A stretch of 64,000 nucleotides of DNA, taken from a virus. Position 1 is the stretch's first letter. Every line of letters starts with the position of its first letter. Shown in pieces: positions 34,187 through 57,271 of this stretch. A model generated the notes under the pieces. The model searched no databases. It was not told the origin of the DNA and saw nothing but the letters and a program-made list of their open reading frames with translations. The position numbers and the translations under genes were made by a program. Where the stretch lies: positions 62,001 through 126,000 of the IMG/VR virus record IMGVR_UViG_3300025141_000022; one strand, given 5' to 3'.

Positions 34187-34513
34187 ATGAAAATTACAAA
34201 AGCACAACTTAAGCGAATAATTTTAGAAGAACTTAAAGCCGTGACAGAACTTGACAAACTTGATGATCAGGATCCGACTGCAGAAAGGCCCCCGGAGTCC
34301 ACCATGGATACATCAAAGATTGATCGAACTGGTGCCAAAGCTGGTGAAGAGATGCGTGACGTACAACTGGCAACAAAGTATTTGAAGAAAATCGACAACC
34401 ATAAAGAATTCGGACAACTACTCGCAGCCGTTCTAAAGCATGCCGAACAAGATCCACAGATGCAGGCTGTTCTTAAAAGAATGTTTCAACGCCGTCGAGA
34501 TGTGGGAGTATAG
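34187..34513 (+). CDS. Small protein with type-B N-terminal peptide
   Basis: A 108-residue protein that begins MKITKAQLKRIILEEL, a clear type-B peptide; the ILE14 site fits T4-type prohead proteases. The central part is charged and probably disordered (DQDPTAERPPEST); the C-terminal third is helical (LLAAVLKHAEQDPQMQAVLKR is the predicted helix region, residues about 80-100) and basic at the end. AAGGA lies before the ATG. Function unknown. Confidence 0.7.
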   Translation: MKITKAQLKRIILEELKAVTELDKLDDQDPTAERPPESTMDTSKIDRTGAKAGEEMRDVQLATKYLKKIDNHKEFGQLLAAVLKHAEQDPQMQAVLKRMFQRRRDVGV

Positions 34514-34523: not shown

Positions 34524-34994
34524 GTGGCTAAAAGAAAAAATGTAAAGAGAATTGACCCGAGATACTTTTTGGATGAAACAGTGCATAGAGGGCTGGATGA
34601 AGGTGTCGTAAAAAAGCCCTTTGGAGACACCATGATCACGCACGACGATTATGAGCAGTCTGACGAGCCTCCTCGCGATGACACTGGTGAGCCGCCCCTC
34701 ACACAACGCTCGCAACGTAAACTTAGCCACGATCATATGCTGGCAAGAATTAACGATGCAAAGCTATACCTCCAACAACAAGAGGACCCAGTTGCGTCAG
34801 AACTCTCGCAGGAGCTTGATGGCGTAATACACACTATGGAGTTGCTAAATGATTATTTTATGGGTGATATGCCCGCAGACGCGAATCCATTGAGCCGAAG
34901 ACCTCCCGGTGGAGGACTCGGTGGTCCGGGTAAAGGCCCCAGGCATATGCGCGGAGACTCGGGAGGCGGCTACCCAGAAGAGGAGATGTCGTGA
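34524..34994 (+). CDS. Protein with type-C N-terminal peptide (DPRYFLDE)
   Basis: A 156-residue protein. I chose GTG 34524, which follows AGGGAGA at proper distance; the ATG at 34440 in the same frame would lie inside the previous gene. The N-terminus KRKNVKRIDPRYFLDE closely matches NNKRRDPRYFLNE at the start of the protein coded at 47199-47747, and both end at an L-x-E site. The middle contains a helical segment (MLARINDAKLYLQQQ) and the end is Gly/Pro/Arg-rich, probably disordered. Its stop overlaps the GTG of the next gene. Likely another packaged protein, by inference. Confidence 0.7.
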   Translation: MAKRKNVKRIDPRYFLDETVHRGLDEGVVKKPFGDTMITHDDYEQSDEPPRDDTGEPPLTQRSQRKLSHDHMLARINDAKLYLQQQEDPVASELSQELDGVIHTMELLNDYFMGDMPADANPLSRRPPGGGLGGPGKGPRHMRGDSGGGYPEEEMS

Positions 34995-35704
34995 AAATCA
35001 CAAAAGCAAAATTAAAAGAAATCATTATGGAAGAGATCGTTAAAGAGTCTCTAGATGATTATCATTTCGGTTTTGACCCAACACACAATCAGCCAAAAAT
35101 TAGTTCTGCTCAGGCAGCAGAAGAGGCGCTGTGGCACTGGTATGAAGAAGCGTTTATGAATAATGCGATGCCTCTTCTATTAGAATCATACCCCGAGGTT
35201 GCAGGTTATAGTCCATCTAATCCATCAGAGCTTCTTGATGTGCTATCAGATCTTAATCGACAATTTAAAGAAAATACAGTGGGCAGACACTCTCAGGAAG
35301 ACGATCCTATGATGAATGCACCAATGATGGAGAACAAAATGAAGATTACAAAAAAAGAATTTAGACAGATTGTCTTGGAAGAGTTGAGAGAGTGCATGTG
35401 TGATTCTGCACCTATTGTTGAGTACGAGACAGAAGAAGGCGAGATCGAAAGAATAGTAAACAAGTTACGTCAAGCTATGATGCACAAGTCAGAGCAAGAG
35501 GTAGGCCCGGCAGTTCAGGCCCTCAGAATGTTTATTGATTCTCTTGAAATGGCACAATCCGAGGAAGAGCTTGACCAGTTGGTACAAGACCTATCTGGCT
35601 CATCAGTACCAGAGTTTGAGGCGTCCCCAATAGTCGAAAGTACGATGCCGCTTGCGATGCTAAAAGAGGTCTTAAAGAGGCATTTTAGCACGCTTTTGAA
35701 ATAA
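34991..35704 (+). CDS. Double-tagged protein: two type-B peptides in one frame
   Basis: A 237-residue frame from GTG 34991. It begins MKITKAKLKEIIMEE (IME14 site) and carries a second complete peptide, MKITKKEFRQIVLEELRE, at residues 117-134. The second Met (ATG 35339) has GGAG about 7 nt upstream, so internal initiation could make a separate 121-residue protein. Alternatively the full chain could be cut twice by the prohead protease. Both halves are helical and acidic, with no recognised domain. It looks like a fusion of two tagged genes. Confidence 0.7.
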   Translation: MKITKAKLKEIIMEEIVKESLDDYHFGFDPTHNQPKISSAQAAEEALWHWYEEAFMNNAMPLLLESYPEVAGYSPSNPSELLDVLSDLNRQFKENTVGRHSQEDDPMMNAPMMENKMKITKKEFRQIVLEELRECMCDSAPIVEYETEEGEIERIVNKLRQAMMHKSEQEVGPAVQALRMFIDSLEMAQSEEELDQLVQDLSGSSVPEFEASPIVESTMPLAMLKEVLKRHFSTLLK

Positions 35705-35709
35705 AAATA

Positions 35710-35738
35710 TTGACATTATAACGTAACTGTGTTAATAT
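35710..35738 (+). promoter_or_regulatory. sigma70-like promoter for the gp47-gp46 unit
   Basis: TTGACA (35710-35715), exactly 17 nt, TAATAT (35733-35738), with an extended -10 TG. It shares the 10-mer AACTGTGTTA at the same position with the promoter at 32559-32587. A start site near 35745 is expected. Confidence 0.8.
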
Positions 35739-35762
35739 TTAGTTGTGAATTGCATCGAGGCC

Positions 35763-35855
35763 ATGCCGGCCAGCGCCCTGCTGGCTATTATTTGTAGTTA
35801 CCTAGCTATGTTTGCGCTAGGGTGGCTTATTGGCGTGTCCACTAAGGAGAGTTAA
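35763..35855 (+). CDS. Possible 30-residue membrane peptide
   Basis: A short frame behind the promoter. From ATG 35763 it encodes a peptide with one hydrophobic segment (ALLAIICSYLAMFALGWLIG) and a polar end (VSTKES). An in-frame GTG at 35745 would coincide with the expected transcription start and so be leaderless. The only Shine-Dalgarno-like bases (GAGG) are 2 nt from the ATG. Its stop lies one base before the TTG of the next gene, suggesting coupling. Coding status is uncertain. Confidence 0.4.
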   Translation: MPASALLAIICSYLAMFALGWLIGVSTKES

Positions 35856-35856
35856 A

Positions 35857-38800
35857 TTGAAGTTCGCACACATTGCTGATACGCATATTAAAAATTTAAA
35901 ATATCATTATGAGTATAAGGTTGTTTTTGAACAACTCTATAAAAGACTAAAAGAAGAAAAAGTTGATTGCATCGTCCACTGTGGTGATATTGCACACACA
36001 AAGACACAGATTTCACCAGAGTTTGTGGAGTTGTGCTCTGACTTTTTTCGAAACCTTGAGTCAATCGCACCCACATATATTATTTTGGGAAACCACGATG
36101 GCAATCTAAAGAATAGTAGTCGCCAAGACGCACTTACGCCTATTGTGGAGGCTCTTGAATTGCCAAATCTTCATTTGCTGAAGAATTCTGGCGAGACACA
36201 TATCAACAATGATGTCTGCTTGAATGTTCTATCAGTATTTGACGAAGACAATTGGATGGCACCTACGGAGTCTGATAAAATTAATATTGCCCTTTACCAT
36301 GGTTCTATTTCTGGCGTAAAAACAGATATTGGATGGGTCATGGAACACGGAGAGCACGACATATCCATTTTCGATAAATTTGATTTTGCTTTTCTGGGAG
36401 ATATCCATAAAACAAATCAAGCCATAGATCGAGAAGGGAGGATACGCTATCCCGGTAGTACAATTCAGCAAAACCATGGAGAAACAAATGATAAGGGTAT
36501 TCTTATTTGGGACATCCACAACAAGCAAGACTGGGATGTATACCATATCGCATTTGAAAATCCAAAGCCGTTTGTCACAATTGAATTAACGCCAAAAGGA
36601 AGACTTAGAAAAAACAAAAAGATCCCCACCGGCGCACGTCTAAGACTAGTATCTAATAATAACCTGCCTTTAGATAAAATGAAGAAGGCCGTTGAAGTTG
36701 CAAAGCATAGATACAATCCAGAATCTATTACTTTTTTAAATCGCGCCGCAGGCTCAAGGGGAAATGTTGATGATTTGACTGGCAATATGATGAAGACCAA
36801 TCTTCGTGATATGGCTGTACAAGAAAAGTTTATTCGCGAATATCTGAAAGATTATGAACTTGAGGAAGGTGCCATACAAAAGGTGTTCGATCTGAACAAG
36901 AAGTATAATAAGCTTGTCGAAGACGGAGAAGAAGTTTCCAGAAATATTAATTGGAAATTGCAGTCGTTAGAGTGGGACAATCTATTTAACTACGGAAAGG
37001 GGAACCGAATTGGGTTTGATAAGTTAAATGGAATTGTTGGTATCTTTGGCAAAAATTATTCTGGTAAATCTTCTATCATTGATAGTGTATTGTATACCTT
37101 ATTCAATTCTACCTCAAAGAATGAACGTAAGAATCTTAATATTATTAACCAAAATTGCGATGTGGGGCGAGGAAGATTACGAATTAAAATCGGAGACGAA
37201 GAATACCAAATCGAGAGAACATCTGAAAAGTACATTAGAAAGCTTAAAGGAGAGACAACGCAGGAGGCAAAAACGGACCTAGAGTTTACAAGCACGAATA
37301 GAATTCTTGGCGAAGACAAGGTTCACAACGGCTTGACAAGAAACGAAACAGACAAGAATATTCGCAAAATGTTTGGAACACTAGATGACTTCTTGCTGAC
37401 TTCGATGGCCAGTCAAAATGAGTCCTTGGCCTTTATTAAAGAGGGTTCAACTCGACGCAAGGAAATTCTTGCTAAATTTTTAGATCTTGAAATATTTGAT
37501 AAGAAGTTCAAGATGGCCAAGGAGGACGTTGCAGATCTTCGCGGAGCTATCCGCCGCCTTCAAGGTCGCGATTTTGATGAAGACATCGATGTTGCATCGC
37601 AAGAACTGCTCATGGCCGAAGAAGAGATCGAGGTCCACAAGAAAGAGTGCCAAGACTGTGAGGTTACGATTGAGCAGCTAAAAGAAACGCTAAAGCTGGT
37701 TGAAGAAAAGATTTCTTCTATCCCGCAAGAAGTTATCGATATCGTTCAGGTAAAAGATGATTTTAATGCCAAACAAGAACAAACCACCTCGTTGAAGTCT
37801 AAAATTGAGGTACTATACGCTGATCGAAAGATCAAGCAAGAACTGTTCTCTAAAATTAATGATTTCACCAGCAAATATGATATCGATGAACTGAAAGATA
37901 AAAAGCAAAAAATTGATGAGATAGAGGAGTCGATAGAAAATGTCTTGGTCAGCTTACATCGAGAACAGCAAGAGCAGAGCCGTAATAAGAAAAAGGAACA
38001 GCTACTGAAAGAGCATGAATATGATCCCGACTGTACATATTGTTGTGAAAATAAGTTTGTCAAAGAGGCTCATGTTGCTGTAGCCAACATTGTGCTTAAT
38101 GAAAGGAAAATAAAGTCTTTCACGTTGAGTGTTGATTCTTACCGCGATGACCTTGAGGCAATGAAGCCGCAACAAGTTAGTGACCGAATTGACAAATATA
38201 ATCATATACTAGAAAGTAGAGCAGAGTTATCAAACGAAATAGCAAATTTGAATATTTCAATTGAGAGAAACAAGCTAGCTGCAGAAAGGACACAAAGGGA
38301 ATCAGCCGAACTACAAGAAAAGTTGGATTTATACGAAAAAAATAAAGAAGCCATCGAAAGTATGCAAAAGTTGATCAAACTCAGACAGGGCACGATGAAG
38401 AAGATAGATATTAATGCAGCTTCTTTAAAGGTTTGCCAAGAAGAATTGGCAGATTTGTATATGGCGCAAGGCTCGTGTGAGCAGAAGCTACAACACTTAG
38501 AGGATCTGAAGGAAGAGTTTGAGAACTTGCAAGAAGAGTATTCTGCCTATGACTTGTTCATGCGCAGCATGCACACTAGCGGAATTTCTTATGATATTAT
38601 CAAAAAGAAGTTGCCCGCAATTAATAATGAGATTGCTAAAGTATTAGCCAATGTTGTAAATTTTGAAGTCTTTTTTGAAGACGATGGCAAAAGACTCAAC
38701 ATCTTTATTAAACATCCACAATATGAGCCGCGCCCATTAGAGATGGGATCAGGTGCAGAAAAGTCTATCGCAGCTATGGCAATTCGACTGTCTTTACTTT

Positions 38801-39018
38801 CTGTGTCTAATTTACCAAAGGGCGATCTATTTATATTAGATGAACCCGGCACTGCCTTAGATGCCGACAACATGGAAGGATTTGTTAGAATTTTAGATAT
38901 GGTTAAGAATTACTACAAGACAGTGTTGTTGATTTCGCACATGGATACGCTAAAGGACGTGGCAGATGTTGTAATTGCAATAGAAAAGAAAGACGGATTT
39001 GCCAATGTCAACGTCTAA
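35857..39018 (+). CDS. 46/47: Fused recombination nuclease-ATPase (gp47-gp46, SbcD-SbcC/Mre11-Rad50 type)
   Basis: A 1053-residue single chain joining two normally separate proteins. The start chosen is TTG 35857, 7 nt after AAGGAGA, giving MKFAHIADTH; the upstream TTG at 35830 lies before that site. The nuclease part (about 1-330) has the metallophosphatase motifs IADTH, HCGDIAH, LGNHDG, ALYHGS and LGDIHK. The ATPase part has Walker A GKNYSGKSS (about 398-406), long coiled coils with a zinc hook DCTYCC (Cys726/Cys729), signature GSGAEKS and Walker B FILDEPGTALD (about 990). T4 gp46/gp47 process DNA ends for recombination-dependent replication. It is preceded by a promoter. Confidence 0.92.
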   Translation: MKFAHIADTHIKNLKYHYEYKVVFEQLYKRLKEEKVDCIVHCGDIAHTKTQISPEFVELCSDFFRNLESIAPTYIILGNHDGNLKNSSRQDALTPIVEALELPNLHLLKNSGETHINNDVCLNVLSVFDEDNWMAPTESDKINIALYHGSISGVKTDIGWVMEHGEHDISIFDKFDFAFLGDIHKTNQAIDREGRIRYPGSTIQQNHGETNDKGILIWDIHNKQDWDVYHIAFENPKPFVTIELTPKGRLRKNKKIPTGARLRLVSNNNLPLDKMKKAVEVAKHRYNPESITFLNRAAGSRGNVDDLTGNMMKTNLRDMAVQEKFIREYLKDYELEEGAIQKVFDLNKKYNKLVEDGEEVSRNINWKLQSLEWDNLFNYGKGNRIGFDKLNGIVGIFGKNYSGKSSIIDSVLYTLFNSTSKNERKNLNIINQNCDVGRGRLRIKIGDEEYQIERTSEKYIRKLKGETTQEAKTDLEFTSTNRILGEDKVHNGLTRNETDKNIRKMFGTLDDFLLTSMASQNESLAFIKEGSTRRKEILAKFLDLEIFDKKFKMAKEDVADLRGAIRRLQGRDFDEDIDVASQELLMAEEEIEVHKKECQDCEVTIEQLKETLKLVEEKISSIPQEVIDIVQVKDDFNAKQEQTTSLKSKIEVLYADRKIKQELFSKINDFTSKYDIDELKDKKQKIDEIEESIENVLVSLHREQQEQSRNKKKEQLLKEHEYDPDCTYCCENKFVKEAHVAVANIVLNERKIKSFTLSVDSYRDDLEAMKPQQVSDRIDKYNHILESRAELSNEIANLNISIERNKLAAERTQRESAELQEKLDLYEKNKEAIESMQKLIKLRQGTMKKIDINAASLKVCQEELADLYMAQGSCEQKLQHLEDLKEEFENLQEEYSAYDLFMRSMHTSGISYDIIKKKLPAINNEIAKVLANVVNFEVFFEDDGKRLNIFIKHPQYEPRPLEMGSGAEKSIAAMAIRLSLLSVSNLPKGDLFILDEPGTALDADNMEGFVRILDMVKNYYKTVLLISHMDTLKDVADVVIAIEKKDGFANVNV

Positions 39019-39256
39019 GAAGTATATTATCTTACCGTATGATGGAAATGAACAGAGATTAAGCTTAGAAAACGTTGAAACAAAATTAACAACTCACGTT
39101 AAGATGGATGACATCCATAAATTTTTAAGATATGTCCACTCGCTTGAGGATCTTGCGTTCGCTGTAAAAGATTTAGAATACGAAAAATATAAAAAATACT
39201 TCAATAAAATCGAGAATGTTAATTTTTGTTATGCAATACCCGCCGAGAAGGACTAA
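39005..39256 (+). CDS. Small hypothetical protein overlapping gp46
   Basis: An 83-residue protein starting at ATG 39005, 14 nt inside the end of the preceding gene in another frame. Sequence is mixed: KYIILPYDGNEQRLSLE, a short linker and a C-terminal Tyr/Lys-rich helix (YEKYKKYFNKI). Not recognised. Overlap suggests translational coupling with the recombination protein. Confidence 0.65.
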   Translation: MSTSKKYIILPYDGNEQRLSLENVETKLTTHVKMDDIHKFLRYVHSLEDLAFAVKDLEYEKYKKYFNKIENVNFCYAIPAEKD

Positions 39257-39283
39257 TTATAGTATACTTTTGGAGGTATAGTG

Positions 39284-39472
39284 ATGAAAAAAGGATATTT
39301 AGATAAAATAATGGAGAGAGTAATCTCTCGTAAATTATTCACATTCTTAACCGCAACTGGACTTATGTTGTGGTCTGATTTGGCATCAGAAACCTGGGGT
39401 ATGATTGCGATGGTGTACATCGGAACTCAGGGTGCGATTGACGCTATGAAGGCGTATAGGCACGGAGAATAG
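39284..39472 (+). CDS. Small membrane protein, holin-like candidate
   Basis: A 62-residue protein. ATG 39284 is chosen because GGAGG (39272-39276) lies 7 nt before it; GTG 39281 is possible. It has a basic N-terminus (VISRKLFTF), one or two hydrophobic stretches (LTATGLMLWSDLAS and WGMIAMVYIGTQGAIDA) and a charged tail (YRHGE). The Ser-Arg-Lys start and YIGxQGxxDA ending recall small phage holins. It is followed at once by an Rz-like protein, which supports a lysis cassette, but no endolysin is next to it. Assignment tentative. Confidence 0.65.
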   Translation: MKKGYLDKIMERVISRKLFTFLTATGLMLWSDLASETWGMIAMVYIGTQGAIDAMKAYRHGE

Positions 39473-39473
39473 A

Positions 39474-39878
39474 ATGACTTGGCTAGCATTTACAGTTGCT
39501 ATGAAAAAGGCATGGGTTTGGTGCAAGCACCATTGGAAGATTGTAGCCATTGGTATTTGGACCTTGGTTGTGTATTTGATTGCGCGTGGAAACGTGCGTA
39601 ATTATAAAAAAGTTCTTGAGCAAACGATTAAAAGCTATGAGGCTGAGCGGGATGCAGTAGACAAAACATATCAAGAAGAACTTGATAGAAGAAATCAGGC
39701 GCTTAAAAAACACAATGAGGCGCTGAGACTTTTAGAAGAAAAATACAGCAACGCTGAGGAAGAGCTATCTTATGAAAAAAGAGCGAGGTTTACAGAATTG
39801 ATGAAAATGCACGATGAAGATCCGCAAACAATTAATGAATTGCTTCAGAGGGAGTTTGGGTTTACTTATGTGGAATAA
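39474..39878 (+). CDS. Membrane-anchored coiled-coil protein, i-spanin (Rz)-like
   Basis: A 134-residue protein with one N-terminal membrane segment (KIVAIGIWTLVVYLIA, residues about 22-38) followed by about 80 residues of charged coiled coil (KSYEAERDAVDKTYQEELDR and on). This is the layout of inner-membrane spanins such as lambda Rz. It starts one base after the holin-like gene and overlaps the next gene by 11 nt. Spanins join inner and outer membranes at lysis in Gram-negative hosts, so a true assignment would imply such a host. Topology supports it; sequence identity to Rz was not tested. Confidence 0.65.
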   Translation: MTWLAFTVAMKKAWVWCKHHWKIVAIGIWTLVVYLIARGNVRNYKKVLEQTIKSYEAERDAVDKTYQEELDRRNQALKKHNEALRLLEEKYSNAEEELSYEKRARFTELMKMHDEDPQTINELLQREFGFTYVE

Positions 39879-40314
39879 ATTTTTAGCAATATTTCTAAGC
39901 TTTAATCTTGCAGTACCGATGACAGCGTTTGCAGAAGATCCTCAATTTACCAATTTGGAAATAGGAGAGGCGGCGCCTTTTGCTGGAACTTTGTTCAACC
40001 CAGCGGCTGTATCTGAGTTGATAGTTGATAGTCAATTTTCTATGGATGAGTGTGATTTACGCATACAATTTGAAAAAGATCGGATCGCAGCACAATACCA
40101 ACTGCAGTTGGACATTTTACAAGCTAGTTATGATGGTTTACAAGAAAGGCACACTCTTTTGATGGACATCAAGCAAGAAGAAATTGATACTTATAGGGAT
40201 ATGGCCCTAGAGAGGCCAAATCGGAACAACCATTGGTGGCTAGCCGGTGGCGTCCTATCGGGTATTGGATTAACAATAGGAGTCCTTTGGGCCACACAGG
40301 AGATACAACAATGA
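39868..40314 (+). CDS. Exported coiled-coil protein with C-terminal membrane span
   Basis: A 148-residue protein starting in another frame inside the end of the Rz-like gene. Residues 1-24 form a clear signal peptide (MWNKFLAIFLSF, then PMTAFA before ED). The middle is helical and acidic to mixed (IQFEKDRIAAQYQLQLDILQ), and residues about 122-143 (WWLAGGVLSGIGLTIGVLWA) form a membrane segment. There is no lipobox cysteine, so it is not a standard o-spanin; it could be a periplasm-facing partner of the Rz-like protein. Its stop overlaps the next ATG (ATGA). Confidence 0.65.
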   Translation: MWNKFLAIFLSFNLAVPMTAFAEDPQFTNLEIGEAAPFAGTLFNPAAVSELIVDSQFSMDECDLRIQFEKDRIAAQYQLQLDILQASYDGLQERHTLLMDIKQEEIDTYRDMALERPNRNNHWWLAGGVLSGIGLTIGVLWATQEIQQ

Positions 40315-40631
40315 AAATATCAAAAGGTAGATTAAAGCAACTTATCATGGAAGAGATGAGCTATATAGAAGAGGGCGGAGAAGCCGGCCACTTAGAGCCC
40401 GTGCGCTCATTTGATAGACTCTTTGAAAAAGGCGCCGCTGGTGACGTTTTTGCAGAAGCTGTAGCAAATGAGTTAATGCTAGATGAAGAAGAAGATTTTC
40501 TGGCTATGCGAGGTAGCATTCAACGTGCGTTGGTAGATTGGTATAGACGCCATCAAAGTCAGAGATATCCAACCGGCGCCACCCCTGGTGCCCCGATGCA
40601 AGAAACTAACAAGAAAAAGCGTGGGAAATGA
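40311..40631 (+). CDS. Small protein with type-B N-terminal peptide
   Basis: A 106-residue protein starting at ATG 40311, which overlaps the preceding stop by 4 nt. The N-terminus MKISKGRLKQLIMEEM is a type-B peptide with an IME14 site. The rest has an acidic helix (AVANELMLDEEEDFLAM), an RxxxxDWYRRH helix and a basic disordered tail. Function unknown; a packaged internal protein is inferred. Confidence 0.7.
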   Translation: MKISKGRLKQLIMEEMSYIEEGGEAGHLEPVRSFDRLFEKGAAGDVFAEAVANELMLDEEEDFLAMRGSIQRALVDWYRRHQSQRYPTGATPGAPMQETNKKKRGK

Positions 40632-41023
40632 AAAAGAAGGATGGTCGTTACATAGCTAATATGGAAAAAGCCATTGCAAAAAAATATGGCATGGAAGCAA
40701 CTATCAATCCTAAGTTTTATTGGAATTCGGACAAAGAAAAAGACTATCTGGAGCAGCTAAAGGAGGCGGTCGAACTCGACCGTGAACAGGAGCACAAAAC
40801 AGAAAAGGTCGAAATAAACGGTGTTTTAATTTCTAAAAAACTACTTAATAAAGAGACAGAACGCAAGTGTCCTGTTTGCAGTATCTATTCATTTGATGTT
40901 AGAGATGATGTTTATATGAGTAAATACGATTGTTGCTGGAAGTGCTACATACAACATGTAGAAGACAGAGAGGAACGATGGCAATCAGGATGGCGCCCAG
41001 AGTCAACAAAAAAGGAAGTTTAA
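40628..41023 (+). CDS. Zinc-ribbon protein upstream of terminase
   Basis: A 131-residue protein joined to the previous gene by ATGA overlap. The N-terminal half is helical and charged; the C-terminal half has two cysteine pairs, Cys81/Cys84 (CPVC) and Cys103/Cys106 (CWKC, preceded by Cys102), on a beta scaffold that should bind one zinc, followed by EDREERWQSGWRP. I do not recognise the family by name, though I believe similar proteins occur in other marine phages. It may bind nucleic acid or another protein; its place two genes before the Hc1-like/terminase pair hints at packaging. Confidence 0.7.
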   Translation: MKKKDGRYIANMEKAIAKKYGMEATINPKFYWNSDKEKDYLEQLKEAVELDREQEHKTEKVEINGVLISKKLLNKETERKCPVCSIYSFDVRDDVYMSKYDCCWKCYIQHVEDREERWQSGWRPESTKKEV

Positions 41024-41026
41024 ATA

Positions 41027-41581
41027 ATGGCGGATACATTAGAAATCATAAGAGCAATTTCACAAGCCCAAGCAGCTTCATATGACGGTGCCCATGATGA
41101 AAGATATTCATGGGACGGTGAAGCACATAAGGTTGGCCTAAGAAGGGAAGAAGGAGACATCATCCTAGATTCCAGAGTCAATGACGGTTATGCAATTAAA
41201 TATCATGGAGATCGACTTTGTATCCACTACCATGCAGAACCCCCGCTAAAAGAAGTACATGGAAGCCAATTTGAAGCAGATGTTGAAAGTACCATCTCTT
41301 CAATCGCCTCCTTCTTAAAAAAGGAATATAAGGCTGCAACCGGAAATTCATTGTCCTTAACAGCCGAAGGAGAAGTTGATATACTAGTACAAAATACCTC
41401 TAGAGTTCGTACAATTGTGCAGGCTCATAGGTATTATAAAATCGGAGGCTTAAGTGATGTCGAGTCAGTCCCAACAGTCGAAAGACCTGATGAGAGAAAA
41501 ATTGACAAAGCCTTTAAAGATTGGTTGGCGCTAGGGGACGGCCCAAAGCCTAAAAATGTAACAAGAAAGGGGAAACAATAG
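41027..41581 (+). CDS. Hypothetical protein of the terminase region
   Basis: A 184-residue protein. Features: an N-terminal helix (DTLEIIRAISQAQAAS), a beta-rich middle (KVGLRREEGDIILDSRVNDG, IKYHGDRLCIHYH), a helix (VESTISSIASFLKKEYKAA), then EGEVDILVQNTSRVRTIVQ and a basic disordered tail. A terminase small subunit would be expected near here, but I see no helix-turn-helix or similarity that supports this. The next ATG begins directly after its stop. Confidence 0.7.
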   Translation: MADTLEIIRAISQAQAASYDGAHDERYSWDGEAHKVGLRREEGDIILDSRVNDGYAIKYHGDRLCIHYHAEPPLKEVHGSQFEADVESTISSIASFLKKEYKAATGNSLSLTAEGEVDILVQNTSRVRTIVQAHRYYKIGGLSDVESVPTVERPDERKIDKAFKDWLALGDGPKPKNVTRKGKQ

Positions 41582-41779
41582 ATGGTCTTAGAAGAGTTGC
41601 AAGAAATTATCAATGCTCTCTCAAAAGCCGCCGGTGATGCAGATAAGTTTGACAATAAGAACAATGCATCTGCAGGCCGCCGCGTTCGAAAAGCCGCAAT
41701 GGAAGCAATTAAAGATTTGCGAGCATTAAGAAAGAGTGTTATTGAGGAATTAAACGAAAGAAAAGAAGACAAAGAATAG
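41582..41779 (+). CDS. Histone H1/Hc1-like small protein
   Basis: A 65-residue helical protein. DADKFDNKNNASAGRRVRKA followed by MEAIKDLRALRKSVIEELNERK resembles the N-terminal helical domain of chlamydial histone-like Hc1 (a Lys/Asn-rich turn, A-x-x-R-V-R, then a basic helix) and similar small proteins in Bacteroidetes and phages. It lacks the long Lys/Ala/Pro-rich tail of bacterial Hc1. It might bind DNA or a packaging partner; its placement directly before the large terminase is notable. Assignment by pattern only. Confidence 0.65.
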   Translation: MVLEELQEIINALSKAAGDADKFDNKNNASAGRRVRKAAMEAIKDLRALRKSVIEELNERKEDKE

Positions 41780-41789
41780 TTAGTGTACA

Positions 41790-43379
41790 ATGTCTTTTGA
41801 ACTTTCAAAAAAAGAAATATTATCTGAAATCGTTAAAGCCGGCAAAAGTCCGAAGTACTTCTTAAACAGTTATGCTAAGATATCCCATCCTATGCATGGG
41901 CTTATTAGTTTTAAGACTTACGATTTTCAAGATCAGTTATTAGAAGATTTCAATGATTATAGATTCAATGTAATCTTGAAAGCTCGCCAGCTTGGCATAT
42001 CCACGATTACAGCAGGGTACATTGCGTGGATGATGATGTTTCATCGCGATAAGAACATCCTTGTAATTGCTACAAAGTTTACAACCGCCGCGAATTTGGT
42101 TAAAAAGGTAAAGGCAATAATTAAGTATTTGCCAGAATGGATGCAAATCGCAAATATAAGTATAGATAATAGAACATCATTTGAGCTTTCAAACGGCTCA
42201 CAGATTAAAGCCTCTTCGACATCGGGTGATGCTGGTCGTTCAGAGGCTCTTTCTTTGTTGGTAGTTGATGAGGCCGCTCACGTTGAAGGATTAGAAGAGT
42301 TGTGGACTGGCCTGTATCCTACACTATCAACTGGTGGCCGCTGTATCGCACTATCGACTCCCAATGGGGTGGGTAACTGGTTTCACAAAACGTATATTGA
42401 GGCAGAAGAAGGCTCAAATGACTTTCATTGTTCTCTTTTGCGATGGGATGTTCATCCTGATCGTGGTATGGGCTGGTTTGAAAAAGAAACTAGAAACATG
42501 TCCCGAAGAGAAATTGCACAGGAGTTAGAGTGCAACTTTAATACATCTGGCGAAACCGTAATACACCCCGAAGATATACAAAGATTAATGGAGGCAACAT
42601 ATGAGCCAAAACACAGAACAGGGTTTGACAGGAATTATTGGATCTGGGAAGAATATGATCCAGAATTTAGTTACTTATTGGTGGCAGATGTTGCCCGAGG
42701 AGACGGCGCAGATTACTCTGTGTTTCATGTACTTAAATTGGAGACAATGGAGTTTATAGCAGAATACCAAGGAAAGCCAAATCTTGATATGTATGCCAAT
42801 ATTCTCAATCAGGTAGGTCGAGAATACGGAAACTGCTTACTGGTTGTCGAAAATAACAGTCTAGGAATCTCAATTTTAGAAAAGCTCAAAGATTTAGAAT
42901 ATCCAAATATCTATTTTTCGATTAAGTCTACTCATGAATATGTGGAGCAATATCAAGCCGAGGGTATGAGCAATTCTGTGCCGGGATTTACTACGTCATC
43001 GAAGACTAGACCATTAATAATTGCAAAATTAGAGGAATTCATTCGAAATAAACTAATTACTATATATTCTTCCAGAACTCTGAATGAAATGACCACTTTT
43101 ATTTGGAACAATGGAAAGCCACAATCTATGAGAGGTTATAATGATGATCTGATAATTGCGTTGGCTATTGCTTGTTGGGTTAAAGATACAGCTTTAGAAG
43201 TTAACCAAAAAGATGTACAATATAAGAAAGCATTTTTAGGCTCTCTTTCTAAGGCAAATTCGCAGCTTAACACCACTATACCCGGCATGCACGGATATAA
43301 AGGCAAATCCGCTACCGACAGGGCAAGAAAGCAGCACGAAAAAATAGTTCACCAATTTCCATGGATATTCAAAGGTTAA
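41790..43379 (+). CDS. 17: Terminase large subunit (gp17-like)
   Basis: A 529-residue packaging ATPase-nuclease. ATPase: Walker A-like KARQLGIST (64-72, of the T4 type lacking the classic GKT), Walker B LLVVDEAAH (156-164) and coupling motif STPNGVGNW (189-197). Nuclease (RNase H fold): Asp300 in LLVADVARGDGADYS, Glu354 in LLVVENNSLG and Asp452/Asp453 in GYNDDLIIALAI. Length is a little less than T4 gp17 (610). It docks on the portal encoded next and pumps DNA into the prohead. Confidence 0.95.
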   Translation: MSFELSKKEILSEIVKAGKSPKYFLNSYAKISHPMHGLISFKTYDFQDQLLEDFNDYRFNVILKARQLGISTITAGYIAWMMMFHRDKNILVIATKFTTAANLVKKVKAIIKYLPEWMQIANISIDNRTSFELSNGSQIKASSTSGDAGRSEALSLLVVDEAAHVEGLEELWTGLYPTLSTGGRCIALSTPNGVGNWFHKTYIEAEEGSNDFHCSLLRWDVHPDRGMGWFEKETRNMSRREIAQELECNFNTSGETVIHPEDIQRLMEATYEPKHRTGFDRNYWIWEEYDPEFSYLLVADVARGDGADYSVFHVLKLETMEFIAEYQGKPNLDMYANILNQVGREYGNCLLVVENNSLGISILEKLKDLEYPNIYFSIKSTHEYVEQYQAEGMSNSVPGFTTSSKTRPLIIAKLEEFIRNKLITIYSSRTLNEMTTFIWNNGKPQSMRGYNDDLIIALAIACWVKDTALEVNQKDVQYKKAFLGSLSKANSQLNTTIPGMHGYKGKSATDRARKQHEKIVHQFPWIFKG

Positions 43380-43387
43380 AATAAAAA

Positions 43388-45376
43388 ATGGCAGATAGAA
43401 GAAGAAACCCAAGAAACCCGAGTTCAGAATTATTCGGCAGACTCACTAGACTATTTTCTGGTCCGCTGGTTAATTATCGGGCACAAGACATCAGAAGGTA
43501 CAGGCGCCGCCACCTAGATAAATTTAATTTTAAGTCTAGCAGCGGCCAAGAATTTAGAAAATCATCTTATAATCCATATGCTTCCTTGCAAACGGAGCTT
43601 ATGGTTAACCAAGATCGTGCGCTAAGATATGTTGATTTTGATCAGATGGAGTATACTCCAGAAATTGCTTCTGCGCTAGATATATACGCTGACGAAATGA
43701 CAACATACTCTGATTTGCAGAGAATGTTGTCTATCGATTGTCCAAACGAAGAGATCAAGGTTGTTCTTGATAGTTTATATCAGAGCGTAATGAACCTAGA
43801 GTTTAATTTGTTCGGCTGGTGTCGGACCATGTGTAAGTACGGAGACTTTTTTCTTTATCTCGATATCGATGAGGGAATGGGCGTCCGCGCCACAATTGGA
43901 TTGCCAGCTAACGAAGTAGAAAGGTTAGAGGGAGAAGACAAAACAAATCCAAATTATGTACAATATCAGTGGAACTCTGGCGGGCTAACATTCGAGAACT
44001 GGCAGATTGCCCACTTTAGGATTCTTGGAAATGATAAATATGCTCCATATGGAACATCTGTTCTAGAACCGGCACGAAGAATTTGGAGACAACTTACATT
44101 ACTAGAAGACGCCATGATGGCATATCGAATTGTTCGTTCTCCTGAGAGAAGGGTGTTTTACATTGATGTTGGCAACATTTCTCCACAAGATGTCGAAACT
44201 TATATGCAGAAAGCCATTACTCAGCTAAAGAGAAATCAAGTGGTTGATACAGAATCCGGCCGCGTTGACTTACGTTATAATCCAATGAGTATCGAAGAGG
44301 ATTATTTTATCCCCGTCAGGGGCCAAACAAGTTCGCGAATTGAAAATCTTCCAGGCGGGACATATACGGGTGATATTGAGGACGTTAAGTATTTGCGCGA
44401 AAAGCTGTTCTCGGCACTGAAGATCCCAATGTCATATTTGGCTCAGGGCGAGGGTGCCGCAGAGGATAAAACAACATTAGCACAAAAGGATATTCGATTT
44501 GCTAGAACTATTCAGAGGCTTCAGCGTGTTATAATTAGCGAATTGGAAAAAATTGGTATCGTCCACCTTTATACCCTAGGGTATCGTGGTGATGACTTGA
44601 TTTCTTTCAAACTTCGCCTAAATAACCCTTCTAAGATTGCTGAATTACAAGAATTGGAACACTGGAGGACAAAGTTCGAAGTTGCCGGCGGAGCCACAGA
44701 AGGATTCTTTTCTCGTCGCTGGGTCGCTAAAAAGTTATTCAATATGACTGACGAAGAATTCATCAGAAACCAGAGAGAAATGTTCTTTGATAGAAGATTT
44801 GATGCTCAACTTGAAGCTGAGTCTGAAGCTGTTGCGGCAGAAGCTACAGCCGCCGCCGGCGGTGGTGAAGACCTTGGCCTAGGCGATGAGGAGGGCGGAG
44901 ACGAAGATCTCGGCCTAGGCGGCGAAGAGGATCTTGGCGGCGAAGAGGATCTTGGCGGCGAAGAAGAAGGTGGAGAAGAAGATGTCCTATTGGCCGAGCC
45001 TGCTAAGAGAAAAGATGATATCGATGGTGATATTGTTAGGACCAGAACTGGCAGAAAAGCATATAAGCCAAAGGGTTCTAACAAGGTGTACACACGCGGC
45101 TCCAAAGGCAAAGGGTATGTGCCCGAGACATCTCCAGACTACGCCGGGAGTGCTCGCCAGCGCAGTATTCAAGGCCAATATGGCAGAGAGGTGGCGAGAG
45201 CCACCCTAAGAAACACTCATAAGGGCGCTCAAGACATGTTTAGTCTTGGAAAAGGGATTTACGAAGGATATGAAACTAATTATAGTTCGGAAGAAGAGAA
45301 GATATTTGAAGCCAGTAAAACGGTGAAAGATCTAATCATAGAATTGGAGCTTAAACAGAATGAAGACAAAACATAA
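43388..45376 (+). CDS. 20: Portal vertex protein (gp20-like) with acidic C-terminal extension
   Basis: A 662-residue portal protein. Typical parts: DFDQMEYTPEIASALDIYADE (residues ~80-100), LFGWCRTMCKYGDFFLYLDI, the stem/crown region with FRILGNDKYAPYGTSVLEPARR, and IPMSYLAQGEGAAEDKTTLAQ. T4 gp20 is 524 residues. Here about 140 extra residues follow residue ~490: a Gly/Glu/Asp/Leu repeat tract (GEEDLG units, 44866-44999), then a basic segment and a helical end. The repeat tract is coded by near-exact 18-nt units. The end overlaps the next gene by 17 nt. Confidence 0.93.
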   Translation: MADRRRNPRNPSSELFGRLTRLFSGPLVNYRAQDIRRYRRRHLDKFNFKSSSGQEFRKSSYNPYASLQTELMVNQDRALRYVDFDQMEYTPEIASALDIYADEMTTYSDLQRMLSIDCPNEEIKVVLDSLYQSVMNLEFNLFGWCRTMCKYGDFFLYLDIDEGMGVRATIGLPANEVERLEGEDKTNPNYVQYQWNSGGLTFENWQIAHFRILGNDKYAPYGTSVLEPARRIWRQLTLLEDAMMAYRIVRSPERRVFYIDVGNISPQDVETYMQKAITQLKRNQVVDTESGRVDLRYNPMSIEEDYFIPVRGQTSSRIENLPGGTYTGDIEDVKYLREKLFSALKIPMSYLAQGEGAAEDKTTLAQKDIRFARTIQRLQRVIISELEKIGIVHLYTLGYRGDDLISFKLRLNNPSKIAELQELEHWRTKFEVAGGATEGFFSRRWVAKKLFNMTDEEFIRNQREMFFDRRFDAQLEAESEAVAAEATAAAGGGEDLGLGDEEGGDEDLGLGGEEDLGGEEDLGGEEEGGEEDVLLAEPAKRKDDIDGDIVRTRTGRKAYKPKGSNKVYTRGSKGKGYVPETSPDYAGSARQRSIQGQYGREVARATLRNTHKGAQDMFSLGKGIYEGYETNYSSEEEKIFEASKTVKDLIIELELKQNEDKT

Positions 45377-46184
45377 CAAGAAACGTAATACAGCTTTTTT
45401 ATATGAAGCATTGGTAAAAGAGTTGACCAAAACGTTCATTTCTAATGAATTGGATAGGAGAGATAAGGTGTTGGACATCCTTAAGGAGCACTTTAGAAAG
45501 GGTTCGGTCCTACACAAAGAGTTAGAACTGTATAAAGCACTAACCGATTCTCACAATCTGAGTCCCAGAGTTGCGGAAAGGATGCTCTCTGAGGTGAAAA
45601 AAGTATATTTTTCATTTAGTAAAGAAGAGATCTTTGATGAGCAAACAGAAGTTATAAATAAAACAAACAAGACGCTTGGGAAAAATGTCTTTTCTAATTT
45701 TGTTCCAAATTATAAGAGTCTAGCAACAATATCTCAGATATTCAGCGATGCAGTTCCTGTGAAAAAGCGCGTAGTTCTAGAGGAAGGCTTGATTCAGAAC
45801 ATAACGGCACCCAAGCGTGTTAAGAAAAAGGAAAATTTAGTGCCTATAGACAACCTAGTTTATAAAACTTTTGTTGATAAATTTAACAAAGAATATACTG
45901 GTGTTTTGCACGAAGAACAGAAGACTTTATTGAATAATTATATTGTATCTTTTAAAGATAATAGTTTAGAATTAAAAGTTTATCTCAACGAGGAACTTGG
46001 AAGACTGAAAGAAGAAGTGACAAAGTGCGCCTTAGCACCAGAAGTTAAATCAGATAATTCTATGGCCAACTCCGTGTCTTCTGTTCTTGAAATGATTGAG
46101 GAATTCCGCACTCAGCCAGTAAATGATAAAATGGTGGAAAGAATTTTAAAGATTCAACAACTGGTTCGTGAGGTACAAAGCTAA
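45360..46184 (+). CDS. Conserved-looking protein between portal and protease
   Basis: A 274-residue, mostly helical basic protein. It starts inside the end of the portal gene (17-nt overlap) and its stop overlaps the next ATG by one base. Sequence begins KHNKKRNTAFLYEALVKELT; a LPRVAERMLSEV-like helix and several Lys/Glu-rich helices follow. In T4 the genes between portal and protease code for prohead core proteins (gp67, gp68), so a prohead core or portal-associated role is plausible from position. No direct similarity seen. Confidence 0.7.
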   Translation: MKTKHNKKRNTAFLYEALVKELTKTFISNELDRRDKVLDILKEHFRKGSVLHKELELYKALTDSHNLSPRVAERMLSEVKKVYFSFSKEEIFDEQTEVINKTNKTLGKNVFSNFVPNYKSLATISQIFSDAVPVKKRVVLEEGLIQNITAPKRVKKKENLVPIDNLVYKTFVDKFNKEYTGVLHEEQKTLLNNYIVSFKDNSLELKVYLNEELGRLKEEVTKCALAPEVKSDNSMANSVSSVLEMIEEFRTQPVNDKMVERILKIQQLVREVQS

Positions 46185-46753
46185 TGGCAGTTACAATTAA
46201 AGTCGGAGCCGAAGCGAACGCTCCCGAAGCCGCCGCAGCAGAAGCTCTCCCAGTGCAGGCCACAATGGAGTTGAATATGCGTAAGTCACTTAATGGTGAT
46301 GTTATGATATTCGATCATCCAGATATAGATATTGTAATTTTGACAGAAAAAAGAAAAGTGTTGGCCTTAGCAAAAGATTTGATGTCTGATACTGTATACG
46401 AAACACAAGATCATCTTTTTAAGTATCTGTATAAAAAGGGCATAGTTGTTATAGATAGCGTCAAAGGCGGTAACGTATATGGTTCGATTGAAGGAATCAT
46501 CCAAGAATCAATACAAGAAGGAGTTGACGCAGTTCAGAGCGCTATTTTTACAATTGGTAAATTCATAGAAGAAGAGCGCCCATACTTCGAATATGAACAG
46601 AAATACAAGCAGCAAGAAGATGAATATCTTGTAGATCCAGATGCTGAACACTCTACAGAGCTTGGTGAGATTCCGCATTCTGATAAGAAGGGATCGATTA
46701 GGCCAGGATGGGTACGAGGCCCATATGGAATGTACGATCTGTATAGGGCGTAA
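46184..46753 (+). CDS. Hypothetical protein of the prohead region
   Basis: A 189-residue protein with an Ala/Glu-rich N-terminus (EANAPEAAAAEALPVQ), a central alpha/beta region (NGDVMIFDHPDIDIVILTEK, KGIVVIDSVKGGNVYGSIEG), a helix (QEGVDAVQSAIFTIGKFIEE) and an acidic to polar tail ending GWVRGPYGMYDLYRA. Not recognised. Tight coupling to its neighbour suggests co-assembly in the prohead core. Confidence 0.7.
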   Translation: MAVTIKVGAEANAPEAAAAEALPVQATMELNMRKSLNGDVMIFDHPDIDIVILTEKRKVLALAKDLMSDTVYETQDHLFKYLYKKGIVVIDSVKGGNVYGSIEGIIQESIQEGVDAVQSAIFTIGKFIEEERPYFEYEQKYKQQEDEYLVDPDAEHSTELGEIPHSDKKGSIRPGWVRGPYGMYDLYRA

Positions 46754-46763
46754 CGGAGTGTAG

Positions 46764-47078
46764 ATGGAATTAATTTGGTTTGTCCTCGCGGCATACGGAC
46801 TAACTCAAATATTGATTTATGGCTCTATATTCGACAAGATTAGACCAACAACTGGAAGGCTTGGCGAGCTATTTAGCTGTCCTATGTGCCTAGGCTTTTG
46901 GGTTGGTGCATTTTTGTTTGGCATTAATGGATATACAGAACTATTTACGTTTGAGTATACTATTGCTAATTTATTTATTTTAGGCTGGCTTTCTTCGGGT
47001 ACCTCATATACCCTCAATATGCTCATCGGAGATCAAGGATTTAGACATGAAAAGACAAACGTGGACAGGAGGATTTAG
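46764..47078 (+). CDS. DUF1360-like membrane protein, C-terminus altered by a 34-bp duplication
   Basis: A 104-residue membrane protein with three hydrophobic stretches and the motif ELFSCPMCLGFWVGAF, the Cys-Pro-x-Cys...Phe-Trp signature I associate with DUF1360 (YjcL-type) proteins. The last residues are coded by the first copy of a 33-bp direct repeat (47036-47068, 47070-47102); because the repeat period is 34 nt, it shifts the frame and replaces a tail SEVDASTS by RRI. Without the duplication the gene would end at 47129-47131 instead. A membrane protein in the head block is unusual. Confidence 0.7.
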   Translation: MELIWFVLAAYGLTQILIYGSIFDKIRPTTGRLGELFSCPMCLGFWVGAFLFGINGYTELFTFEYTIANLFILGWLSSGTSYTLNMLIGDQGFRHEKTNVDRRI

Positions 47079-47102
47079 ACATGAAAAGACAAACGTGGAC
47101 AG
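47036..47102 (+). repeat. 33-bp tandem duplication, period 34
   Basis: Bases 47036-47068 are repeated exactly at 47070-47102 with one base between them. The copies begin AGGATTTAGACATG and end GTGGACAG. The duplication spans the end of the DUF1360-like gene and shifts its frame. Confidence 0.95.
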
Positions 47103-47154
47103 CGAAGTGGATGCTTCAACCAGTTAGACACTGTTGCAAAGGCAAGATAATCAC

Positions 47155-47180
47155 GCGGGTAGCGCCCGCACATTTTTTTA
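47155..47180 (+). terminator. Intrinsic terminator before gene 47199
   Basis: Stem GCGGG (47155-47159) with CCCGC (47165-47169), five-base loop TAGCG, followed after three bases by a run of seven T. It lies between the DUF1360-like gene and the type-C tagged gene. Confidence 0.7.
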
Positions 47181-47198
47181 ATAAACGGAGATACAGTA

Positions 47199-47747
47199 AT
47201 GAGTAGATGGGGAAAACCAACCAAAAATAACAAGAGAAGAGATCCAAGATACTTCTTGAACGAACAAGAGGAAAAGGAAGCACAGCGCGATCCATCAGGT
47301 GGCGCCCCAGCTGCCCAATTGGATGAAAAAGAAGTTCTACCACTAATCCAAAGCTTCTATAAGGCTATGCGCGCAGCCCGCGATGGGGTGCAATCTTCCC
47401 GTAAAGCTTTAGGCGATGACTGGGTTAAAAAACAAGCCCAAAAATATTCCCAAAGAGCCGGCGATCAAGAACAAAATCTTAAGATGTGGTTTCAAACCAC
47501 GGTGGGCGACGGCATGTGGCGCGCCGCTCGTGCCATGGCTCCTGTTTATGCTGACATTAGAAAAGGCGCCCGAGGATCTGCTAACTCGATAGATATCATC
47601 GCACACCATGCTGGCGACATGGCAGAGAAATTTTTGCAACAAACAAAGGGCATGAAAGCCAAAATGGCATTTCTAGAACAATTTGACGAGTTAACCAAAG
47701 AGTATTTTGAAAACACTGAGAGATTTGGAAAGGGACACATACTGTGA
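47199..47747 (+). CDS. Protein with type-C N-terminal peptide (DPRYFLNE), next to protease
   Basis: A 182-residue protein. The N-terminus KNNKRRDPRYFLNE matches the start of the protein at 34524 and ends at an L-N-E site. The body is helical: VLPLIQSFYKAMRAARDGVQ, an AQKYSQRAGDQEQN stretch, MAPVYADIRKGARGSANSID and AKMAFLEQFDELTKEYF. It is not recognised as a T4 core protein, but is placed directly before the protease, where T4 has gp67/gp68, both cut by that protease. CGGAG precedes the ATG, and the stop overlaps the GTG of the protease gene. Confidence 0.7.
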   Translation: MSRWGKPTKNNKRRDPRYFLNEQEEKEAQRDPSGGAPAAQLDEKEVLPLIQSFYKAMRAARDGVQSSRKALGDDWVKKQAQKYSQRAGDQEQNLKMWFQTTVGDGMWRAARAMAPVYADIRKGARGSANSIDIIAHHAGDMAEKFLQQTKGMKAKMAFLEQFDELTKEYFENTERFGKGHIL

Positions 47748-48352
47748 AAGTACTTTTACGAGAATACTATGAATTATGTGAAGGCGGTGTTTGCCAAGAT
47801 CTTTTAACTGAAGATGAAAAGAGATATGTGGCAAACGGCGGCTTAATTTTGACTGGAAAACTACAAGAAGCAGATGTGCAAAACGGGAACGGCCGTGTGT
47901 ATCCGCAAAGAGTATTACAGAGAGAAATGCAAAATTACCAAAAACTTGTAAAAGAAAGAAGAGCCCTTGGAGAGTTAGATCATCCTGAAGATTCAGTTAT
48001 TAACCTTAAGAACGCATCTCATATGGTTACAGAGGTGTGGTGGGATGGTTCTGCGGTTATGGGTAAAGTTAAAGTTTTAAATACGCCATCTGGCAAAATA
48101 TTACAAGAATTAGTGAGTGATGGTGTTAAGCTGGGAATTTCGTCCCGTGGCTTGGGATCTGTTAGCGAATCACAAGGGAGAACAATTGTCGAAGACGATT
48201 TCACATTAATCTGTTTTGACTTCGTATCAGAACCATCAACGCCAAATGCATTTATGCTTAAAGAAAATAAGAATGCGCCAAATATTTTTACCAAAGCAGA
48301 CAAAATCAATCGCGCATTAAACGACATATTGGGAGATTATGACAATGAGTAA
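47744..48352 (+). CDS. 21: Prohead core protease (gp21-like)
   Basis: A 202-residue protease of the T4 gp21/herpes assemblin-like fold. Conserved elements: ALGELDHPEDS with catalytic His80, NLKNASHMVTEVWWDG, and VKLGISSRGLGSV with the catalytic Ser at 133/134. In T4 this enzyme, inside the prohead, cuts scaffold, capsid and internal proteins after [L/I]-x-E and then itself. Its own start, VLLREYYELCE13, resembles the type-A peptides and ends in L-C-E. GTG start, overlapping the preceding stop. This gene is the main support for reading the tags as cleavage sites. Confidence 0.92.
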   Translation: MKVLLREYYELCEGGVCQDLLTEDEKRYVANGGLILTGKLQEADVQNGNGRVYPQRVLQREMQNYQKLVKERRALGELDHPEDSVINLKNASHMVTEVWWDGSAVMGKVKVLNTPSGKILQELVSDGVKLGISSRGLGSVSESQGRTIVEDDFTLICFDFVSEPSTPNAFMLKENKNAPNIFTKADKINRALNDILGDYDNE

Positions 48353-49361
48353 AAAGAACTTTTCTTCATATGATGATATTCATAGGCTACATGAAGGATT
48401 TAGAAAATGGATAGGTGAGGAACGTGGACCCCCCTCCCCGCTTGGATCCGAAGAAGATGATTCGGGGATTGCTGCCGATGTTGAGCAGGCATATAAATCC
48501 GGCCCAGCATCCGTCCGCGCTTTCATGAACACACCAGAAGGTTCAGATCCGAAAGTTAGACAATTCTTGCATCGAGCACAAGCTGAATATGACGGTTCGG
48601 CATCGGACGACGATATTTCAATCTCGCAGGATGGTGCTAAATCTTTGATGGATATGGTTCCGACTCAAAAATATATTGACCTTATGCAGTCGGTATCCTT
48701 TCCTTTGGGAAGTGTCGGCACTCTTAAAAAGGCAATCGAATCTAAGAAGGGTTTTGGCCCAATTTCGGTTTCGGACCAGTACGTCCTAGATGGACACCAT
48801 CGTTGGTCGGGCCAGTTTGCAATTACGCCAGACGGAACGATCTCGGCTACTAACATCTCGCTCCCTGGAGATGCCCAGCAAAAATTAGCTTCGCTGCAGC
48901 TAGCAATTGCAGCTATTGATCCAAATGCGAAAGATCCGCACCCATCTAAAGGCGGCAGCGCTGCAACGAATATATTAGGAAAAGGCGCCAAAGAGATTTA
49001 CAAAAAGATTTTGGCCAACGTTAACAACCAGACTGATAAAAAGGCCCCCGGCCCACTCCTGAATGATGCCATGATTTCTGAAATTGCACAGTCTCAGGAT
49101 CCAGTTATTTTACAATGGGCGGGCTTGAAGCCTGGACAGGCGACTGAGCCCCAGCAGATCAGAGACGCAATTGCTCAAAGGGTAGCTAATAATCTAGCAC
49201 AGCTTCCCAATTTTGCTGCCGGTGCCCCTGATCGCCCCGACATGCCTCAGCTAGATCATGATTCGATTGGTGGTGCAAAAGGATACCAAAAGATTAAAAG
49301 CCGCCTCGCAACAGGCGATCTAAATGTTGTACCTCCGTTTGATAAAGGAAAGACAGGATAG
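48345..49361 (+). CDS. Tagged protein with ParB/sulfiredoxin-like motif
   Basis: A 338-residue protein; ATG 48345 is preferred over 48339 because GGGAG lies 9 nt before it. The start has LHEGFRKWIGE (15-25), which aligns with type-A LLENWRKFLNE, including the terminal I-x-E. Residues 138-155 hold GPISVSDQYVLDGHHRWSG, the D-G-H-H-R motif of ParB/Srx-like domains. The rest is Ala/Gln/Pro-rich helices with a probable disordered end. Known members of that fold bind nucleotides or cut DNA; the activity here is unknown. It overlaps the protease gene by 8 nt. Confidence 0.75.
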   Translation: MSKKNFSSYDDIHRLHEGFRKWIGEERGPPSPLGSEEDDSGIAADVEQAYKSGPASVRAFMNTPEGSDPKVRQFLHRAQAEYDGSASDDDISISQDGAKSLMDMVPTQKYIDLMQSVSFPLGSVGTLKKAIESKKGFGPISVSDQYVLDGHHRWSGQFAITPDGTISATNISLPGDAQQKLASLQLAIAAIDPNAKDPHPSKGGSAATNILGKGAKEIYKKILANVNNQTDKKAPGPLLNDAMISEIAQSQDPVILQWAGLKPGQATEPQQIRDAIAQRVANNLAQLPNFAAGAPDRPDMPQLDHDSIGGAKGYQKIKSRLATGDLNVVPPFDKGKTG

Positions 49362-49363: not shown

Positions 49364-49795
49364 ATGAACAAGACAGAATTAAAGAAGATGTTGAAGCCAC
49401 TAATTAAAGAGTGCATAAAAGAAGCAATATTTGAAGAAGGTGTTCTATCTGGCATTATAACAGAAGTTACGCAAGGACTAGGCTCGACTCAGCAAGTGGT
49501 TACAGCCTCTCCACCCGCACAAGAGCCAGTTGTGGATGAAGCACTTCTAGAAGCCGAGAGGTCAAGAAAGGCCAAACAACAAGAAACAAGAAAAAAGATG
49601 CTAGCCGCCATTGGAAAAAGCACAATGATGGACTCTGGCATGGACTTGTTTGAGGGCACCGAGCCACTACGCGAAGGTGGGGTGCCAAACGCTACTCCAT
49701 CTAAAGGGCCTTTGTCTGGCACCGCACCATCGGATGCAGGAGTTGATATTTCATCTTTGTTTAATAGCAATTGGAAGAAGTTGGCCCAAGGATAA
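49364..49795 (+). CDS. Head-region protein with a KLIKE-type N-terminus
   Basis: A 143-residue protein. The N-terminus MNKTELKKMLKPLIKECIKE and following AIFEEG is a distant relative of the type-B peptide (basic helix, then I-K-E and I-F-E sites). The middle is Ala/Pro/Glu-rich and probably disordered; the C-terminus ISSLFNSNWKKLAQG looks like a short docking peptide. I believe similar small proteins occur near capsid genes of other marine phages, but cannot name a function. It follows the tagged ParB-like gene by two bases. Confidence 0.65.
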   Translation: MNKTELKKMLKPLIKECIKEAIFEEGVLSGIITEVTQGLGSTQQVVTASPPAQEPVVDEALLEAERSRKAKQQETRKKMLAAIGKSTMMDSGMDLFEGTEPLREGGVPNATPSKGPLSGTAPSDAGVDISSLFNSNWKKLAQG

Positions 49796-57254: not shown

Positions 57255-57271
57255 AAAGGAGAAAACAAAAT

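Follow-up and report, generated by a model that had tools for sequence, protein, structure and literature searches.

Sequence divergence makes it hard to recognise the proteins that phages pack into their heads and inject. T4 has three internal proteins, each of which blocks a different restriction enzyme (PMC12373910), and for T-even internal proteins the capsid-targeting sequence (CTS) is already known to be the only common part (PMC3012670). On IPI, IPII, IPIII and Alt the T4 CTS is a short N-terminal leader that precedes otherwise unrelated proteins and ends at an L/I-x-E site; IPII and IPIII, for instance, have the identical leader MKTYQEFIAEA in front of different bodies. The gp21 prohead protease of T4 cuts after L/I-x-E, and the 10-residue N-terminal CTS suffices for the packaging of IPIII (PMC9026906). 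For giant phages, several cleavage sites per propeptide are known (PMC5694885). Head proteins of SPN3US and phiKZ carry targeting propeptides that are removed by a relative of gp21 at several sites each, and include diverged paralogues with identical N-termini.

A similar situation, with a short N-terminal leader on otherwise unrelated proteins, an L/I-x-E site at its end and a gp21-type protease in the phage, is found in the window analysed here, the whole 64,000-nucleotide stretch of DNA comprising bases 62,001-126,000 of the 184,913-bp record of an uncultured phage. The window carries a T4-type head module (terminase at 41790, portal at 43388, prohead protease at 47744 and major capsid protein at 57224) and two genes whose products begin with a leader that we refer to as DPRYF:

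34524..34994, + strand: protein 1, 156 residues, a DPRYF leader followed by a body with two predicted helices
34524..34577, + strand: leader of protein 1, MAKRKNVKRIDPRYFLDE, with a predicted cleavage site, L-D-E, at its end
34578..34604, + strand: spacer of protein 1, TVHRGLDEG, in which L-D-E provides a second L-x-E site, as is typical for DPRYF leaders
43388..45376, + strand: T4-type portal (gp20)
47199..47747, + strand: protein 2, 182 residues, a DPRYF leader and an all-helical body, between portal and protease
47199..47264, + strand: leader of protein 2, MSRWGKPTKNNKRRDPRYFLNE, with a predicted cleavage site, L-N-E, at its end
47744..48352, + strand: gp21-type prohead protease (Peptidase_S77), with an LLTE of its own near the N-terminus; proposed leader-removing enzyme
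57224..59131, + strand: major capsid protein (gp23 type), whose propeptide ends at LLRE

The 34524 gene has a GTG start (upstream sequence TAGGGAGAACACA) and is surrounded by genes tagged with a second kind of leader, MKITK, between primase-like and gp46/47-like genes; homology in its body begins at VVKKPF. The 47199 gene has an ATG start (CGGAGATACAGTA) and overlaps by 4 bp the protease gene, which matches Peptidase_S77 in Pfam (E = 1.6e-32) and the head maturation protease of PHROG (E = 1.9e-54). The original prediction was that the two proteins have KRxDPRYFL[D/N]E in common within their first 22 residues and nothing else, and this is what we find: the motif lies within the first 18 residues of the 34524 protein and the first 22 of the 47199 protein, and BLASTP aligns 14 residues only (KN.KR.DPRYFL.E, 11/14 identical). 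Because the alignment is this short, the proteins are not full-length paralogues; full-length homology would have refuted the prediction. Both leaders do end in L-x-E as claimed (FLDE at 34524, FLNE at 47199), and one of the tagged genes is indeed beside the prohead protease, this being 47199 only; 34524 lies elsewhere. The back-translated pattern for DPRYFLxE has exactly two occurrences in the window, at 34554 and 47241, with 0.00 expected from 100 dinucleotide shuffles, which rules out chance as the origin of the pair. A search for further carriers in the rest of the genome was originally proposed, and over the open frames of the whole 184,913-bp record it gave no DPRYF besides these two.

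In an AlphaFold model of the 47199 protein the leader (residues 1-24) has a pLDDT below 50, with a helical body behind it. A flexible leader would be expected to look like this, but little weight can be put on the model, which is based on 3 sequences and whose five versions disagree. A fold search of this 3-sequence model against viral structures gave no significant match (best E 0.22), and the gene has no match in PHROG.

We consider it probable, at roughly four in five, that DPRYF serves as a removable capsid-targeting sequence in the manner of the T4 CTS, though there are no proteomics or cleavage data. The protein would be synthesised with its leader, which would dock it to the prohead's scaffolding core during growth; the gp21-type protease would cut behind the E of [L/M]-x-E, behind that of a second L/I-x-E located 8-24 residues on, or behind both, and so free the body within the head. 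Unrelated bodies could thereby gain packaging through gain of a leader, and at least three unrelated, exchangeable leader types would serve one purpose. What can be read from the sequences themselves is the conservation, portability and exchange of the leader, the site motif, its avoidance in the bodies and the location of the genes; that the leader docks to the core and is cleaved, and that the body is packaged and injected, is inference from T4.

DPRYF leaders were collected by two pattern scans over IMG/VR viral contigs and by two protein-based searches. The sample may be skewed, and abundances from the DPRYF and MKITK scans are lower bounds. The first DNA pattern required L and E, so conservation counts from it were not used; the second ended at the F codon. 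At least 182 copies were found, at least 159 of them distinct, and they open short genes (in fragments, ORFs were called mechanically). Aligning 125 carriers gives a consensus only in the leader, MARRKNxKRIDPRYFLxETxxR, or in summary MARRKNxKRIDPRYF[L/M]xE, and past about 35 residues hardly any position reaches 50%. Among the matches listed the bodies form at least about 80 unrelated families (78-88 by threshold), and searching Pfam with the 125 carriers gave 0 matches. At the invariant residues synonymous codons vary freely (among the matches listed D is GAT in 80 and GAC in 79, F is TTT in 80 and TTC in 79, P has four codons and R six), so selection holds the peptide, not the DNA, and the conservation cannot be put down to recent DNA copying. 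Two ORFs, L018:5426 (-) and L046:235 (+), are barely longer than the leader (about 25 and 40 residues), and one of them ends immediately before the protease gene; these could be cargo genes that have decayed, or leader peptides that stand alone.

The carriers belong to a poorly known group of bacterial viruses. No carrier was found by tblastn among 50,697 phage records with both proteins, the DPRYF leader and the MKITK leader, a weak search for queries of 21-27 residues. Judged by capsid or portal protein, the nearest cultured relatives are Microcystis phage Mel-JY01 and Flavobacterium phage immuto, both under 50% identical, and their head gene blocks lack a DPRYF leader. Bacterial and archaeal genomes searched with the leader pattern gave no match, and therefore no clue to a host or prophage, and neither DPRYFL nor LKQIIKEE was found in the open-access literature searched.

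The second scan pattern left the region past F unconstrained. There, [L/M]-x-E is present in 126/126 distinct leaders among the matches listed; the residue after F is L in 118 and M in 8, x varies (N 54, H 52, D 10, others) and E is invariant. A second L/I-x-E lies at residues 8-24 after D in 93 of the 124 non-redundant leaders listed, compared to 30.4 +/- 4.6 in shuffles. For the same 124 there is no excess at residues 24-40 (14 vs 17.0 shuffled) and a deficit at residues 40-56 (4 vs 15.9). In about a fifth of leaders the first site reads M-x-E and so departs from the T4 consensus; among the matches listed, 21 of 24 such leaders have a later L/I-x-E. The 34524 protein matches the two-site pattern, with FLDE and then GLDE before G. 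The propeptide of the major capsid protein ends in LL[RK]E in 12/12 related phages, at a position corresponding to the T4 gp23 site, FLTE before A (sites matched by eye), which suggests that L-x-E specificity applies in this clade too. An S77 protease is encoded by all 13 of the large carrier contigs tested.

Compared to the T4 CTS, the DPRYF leader is basic, has about 18-22 residues and often a second site, occurs on at least about 80 families where roughly 10 T-even internal proteins have been reported, and can be swapped with two unrelated leader types. When aligned to MKTYQEFIAEA, the DPRYF, MKITK and ENWRK leaders score no better than shuffles. The propeptides of SPN3US and phiKZ are mostly over 100 residues long with A/S-x-E sites, whereas the leaders here have about 20-35 residues and L/I-x-E. 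As far as our searches reach, a putative CTS-like sequence unlike that of T4 and spread over dozens of families is new.

Bodies of the DPRYF type are also found with alternative leaders, MKITKxQLKQIIKEE or MKKLFENWRKHLNE, each of which has L/I-x-E. One body with DPRYF in some phages and MKITK or ENWRK in others is seen in at least about ten families, counting as one a large family chained via shared domains and leaving out L048, which has a tandem double leader (MKLTK+DPRYF). For instance, the 34524 body (VVKKPFGDTMITHDDYEQSDEP...) occurs elsewhere behind the MKITK-type leaders MKITKEQLRKIIAEE or MKITRTQLKQIIMEE, with 86-90% body identity, and sharp junctions between leader and body are seen in the pairs L019/L183, L119/L082 and L299/L285. 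Some leaders look like hybrids: DPRYFMDEKTDIIKEEIE has a DPRYF start and the IIKEEIE end of the MKITK type, and one in L018 reads ...ENWRKYFLHET. At the position left unfixed by the scans, E is found in 173/176 MKITK leaders (among the matches listed) and in 48/53 ENWRK leaders, in which the residue two before is mostly L or I. Judging from these comparisons there are at least three unrelated, interchangeable leader types, DPRYF, MKITKxQLKQIIKEE (type 1) and ENWRK (type 2), the latter two being set by simple patterns that may admit false members; at least about 350 families have one of the three. DPRYF was originally put forward as a third tag type, and its leader as having a function shared by distant genes. 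The shared function is supported by a leader that is invariant on at least about 80 unrelated bodies and is swapped for other L/I-x-E leaders. This exchange with two other leader types is also new within the reach of our searches. The window has several genes of the other types:

28738..29739, + strand: type 2 (ENWRK-type) leader gene, leader MRSHKLILENWRKFLKE
34187..34513, + strand: type 1 leader gene, leader MKITKAQLKRIILEE, interchangeable with DPRYF
34991..35704, + strand: double type 1 leader gene, the second of the two leaders, MKITKKEFRQIVLEE, starting in frame at 35339
40311..40631, + strand: type 1 leader gene, leader MKISKGRLKQLIMEE, upstream of the terminase
48339..49361, + strand: gene with an ENWRK-like start, ...HRLHEGFRKWIGEE, after the protease; weak resemblance, tentative

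The gene at 34991-35704 is a single 237-residue ORF in which one MKITK-type leader opens the protein and another follows residue 116. It looks like a fusion of two tagged genes, and cleavage could yield two bodies; similar double-leader ORFs occur in L243 and L275. An array of small tagged genes at L248:4408-7581 has six MKITK-type leaders in about 3.2 kb. One can speculate, though we are doubtful, that the three leaders are not redundant and form a sorting code, with a separate docking partner, or a separate layer of the prohead core, for each. If so, the choice of leader would set where a packaged protein goes, in how many copies or in what order it is released, and a leader swap would re-address a protein.

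The bodies behind the leaders tend to avoid the cleavage motif. We measured depletion as the count of L/I-x-E over that of the reversed motif, with one representative per family. For families among the matches listed the ratio is 0.54 (95% 0.40-0.71) in DPRYF bodies and 0.62 (95% 0.52-0.74) in MKITK bodies; it is 0.95 (0.86-1.04) in long untagged ORFs, 1.02 (0.95-1.10) in 684 small ORFs without a leader on the same contigs, and 1.10 (0.89-1.34) in such ORFs of the genome that the window belongs to. Six other motif pairs (E to D, K or Q; L/I to V/A; spacing of 0 or 2) gave no comparable asymmetry in DPRYF bodies, and the mature parts of T4 IPII and IPIII have zero L/I-x-E. The depletion is indirect evidence that the protease would spare the mature part of tagged proteins. 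It is no universal mark of protease exposure, since neither ENWRK bodies (0.91, 0.63-1.30) nor the folded mature major capsid protein is depleted. The possible use of motif avoidance as a genomic mark of such exposure is, within search reach, new.

Among the matches listed, 57 of 70 distinct carriers with a protease in view are 63-2,150 bp upstream of it and the remainder 6-12 kb upstream, ahead of the terminase; all 70 share its strand. This concentration beside the protease agrees with the proposed tie between the leader and the capsid core. Another leader-tagged gene adjoins 76 of the 161 carriers listed, on the same strand every time. The slot just upstream of the protease is that of T4 gp67/gp68, from portal to protease; these T4 proteins lack a DPRYF leader and are cut into fragments, whereas the tagged bodies avoid the cleavage motif. 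It is conceivable that the leader targets the prohead but that most carriers are parts of the core or scaffold, chopped and expelled like T4 gp67, gp68 and gp22, and are not cargo. The position of most DPRYF carriers listed with a protease in view would agree with this, as would the 47199 protein, which has a helical body and sits in that slot. We think it improbable, however, since L/I-x-E depletion is the opposite of what a protein destined for cutting up should have, and the slot is occupied by many unrelated bodies, as many as three in one phage, where a core protein would be conserved.

Less probable still, the leader might direct proteins to a different assembly or compartment, such as the tail, membrane or replication site, with L-x-E being incidental. 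Though some carriers do lie among replication genes (34524, and likewise one in L010) and direct localisation data are absent, an incidental motif would not account for an invariant E and hydrophobic P3 across the 126 leaders listed, nor for the enrichment of second sites, the avoidance of the motif in bodies and the location next to the protease. That carriers are merely fast-diverging paralogues with the leader as their most conserved part, as neighbouring carriers within one phage might suggest, is hardly credible given the 14 residues common to the 34524 and 47199 proteins, the at least about 80 carrier families and the unrelated leaders on the same body.

Taken as removable capsid-targeting sequences, the leaders provide a handle, from sequence alone, on proteins that these phages probably package and inject. 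They are also candidates for tagging foreign proteins that are to be loaded into phage heads, a use already made of the T4 CTS. Domains recognised among MKITK- and ENWRK-tagged proteins include thioredoxin, 2H phosphoesterase and peptidoglycan-binding. A thioredoxin domain (Pfam E = 1.1e-24) lies behind an ENWRK-type leader at L174:6467-7594 (+), possibly a packaged thioredoxin; single members match 2H phosphoesterase (2H-SAK), PGDYG, PG_binding_1, FliG_C, DUF3293 and DUF2608, and two match nucleotidyltransferase models. These are candidates for enzyme-like cargo.

Several genes of the window downstream of the protease are also worth mention. The protein at 49364-49795 starts with MNKTELKKMLKPLIKECIKEAIFEEGVLSGIITEV, possibly a further leader type, and has homologues behind the protease in many related contigs. 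Between the protease and major capsid genes lie 50517-51233, with weak matches to depolymerase-sandwich and tail-fibre proteins, and 51252-54422, encoding a 1056-residue protein without known function; the products of both are unusual neighbours for a T4 head module.
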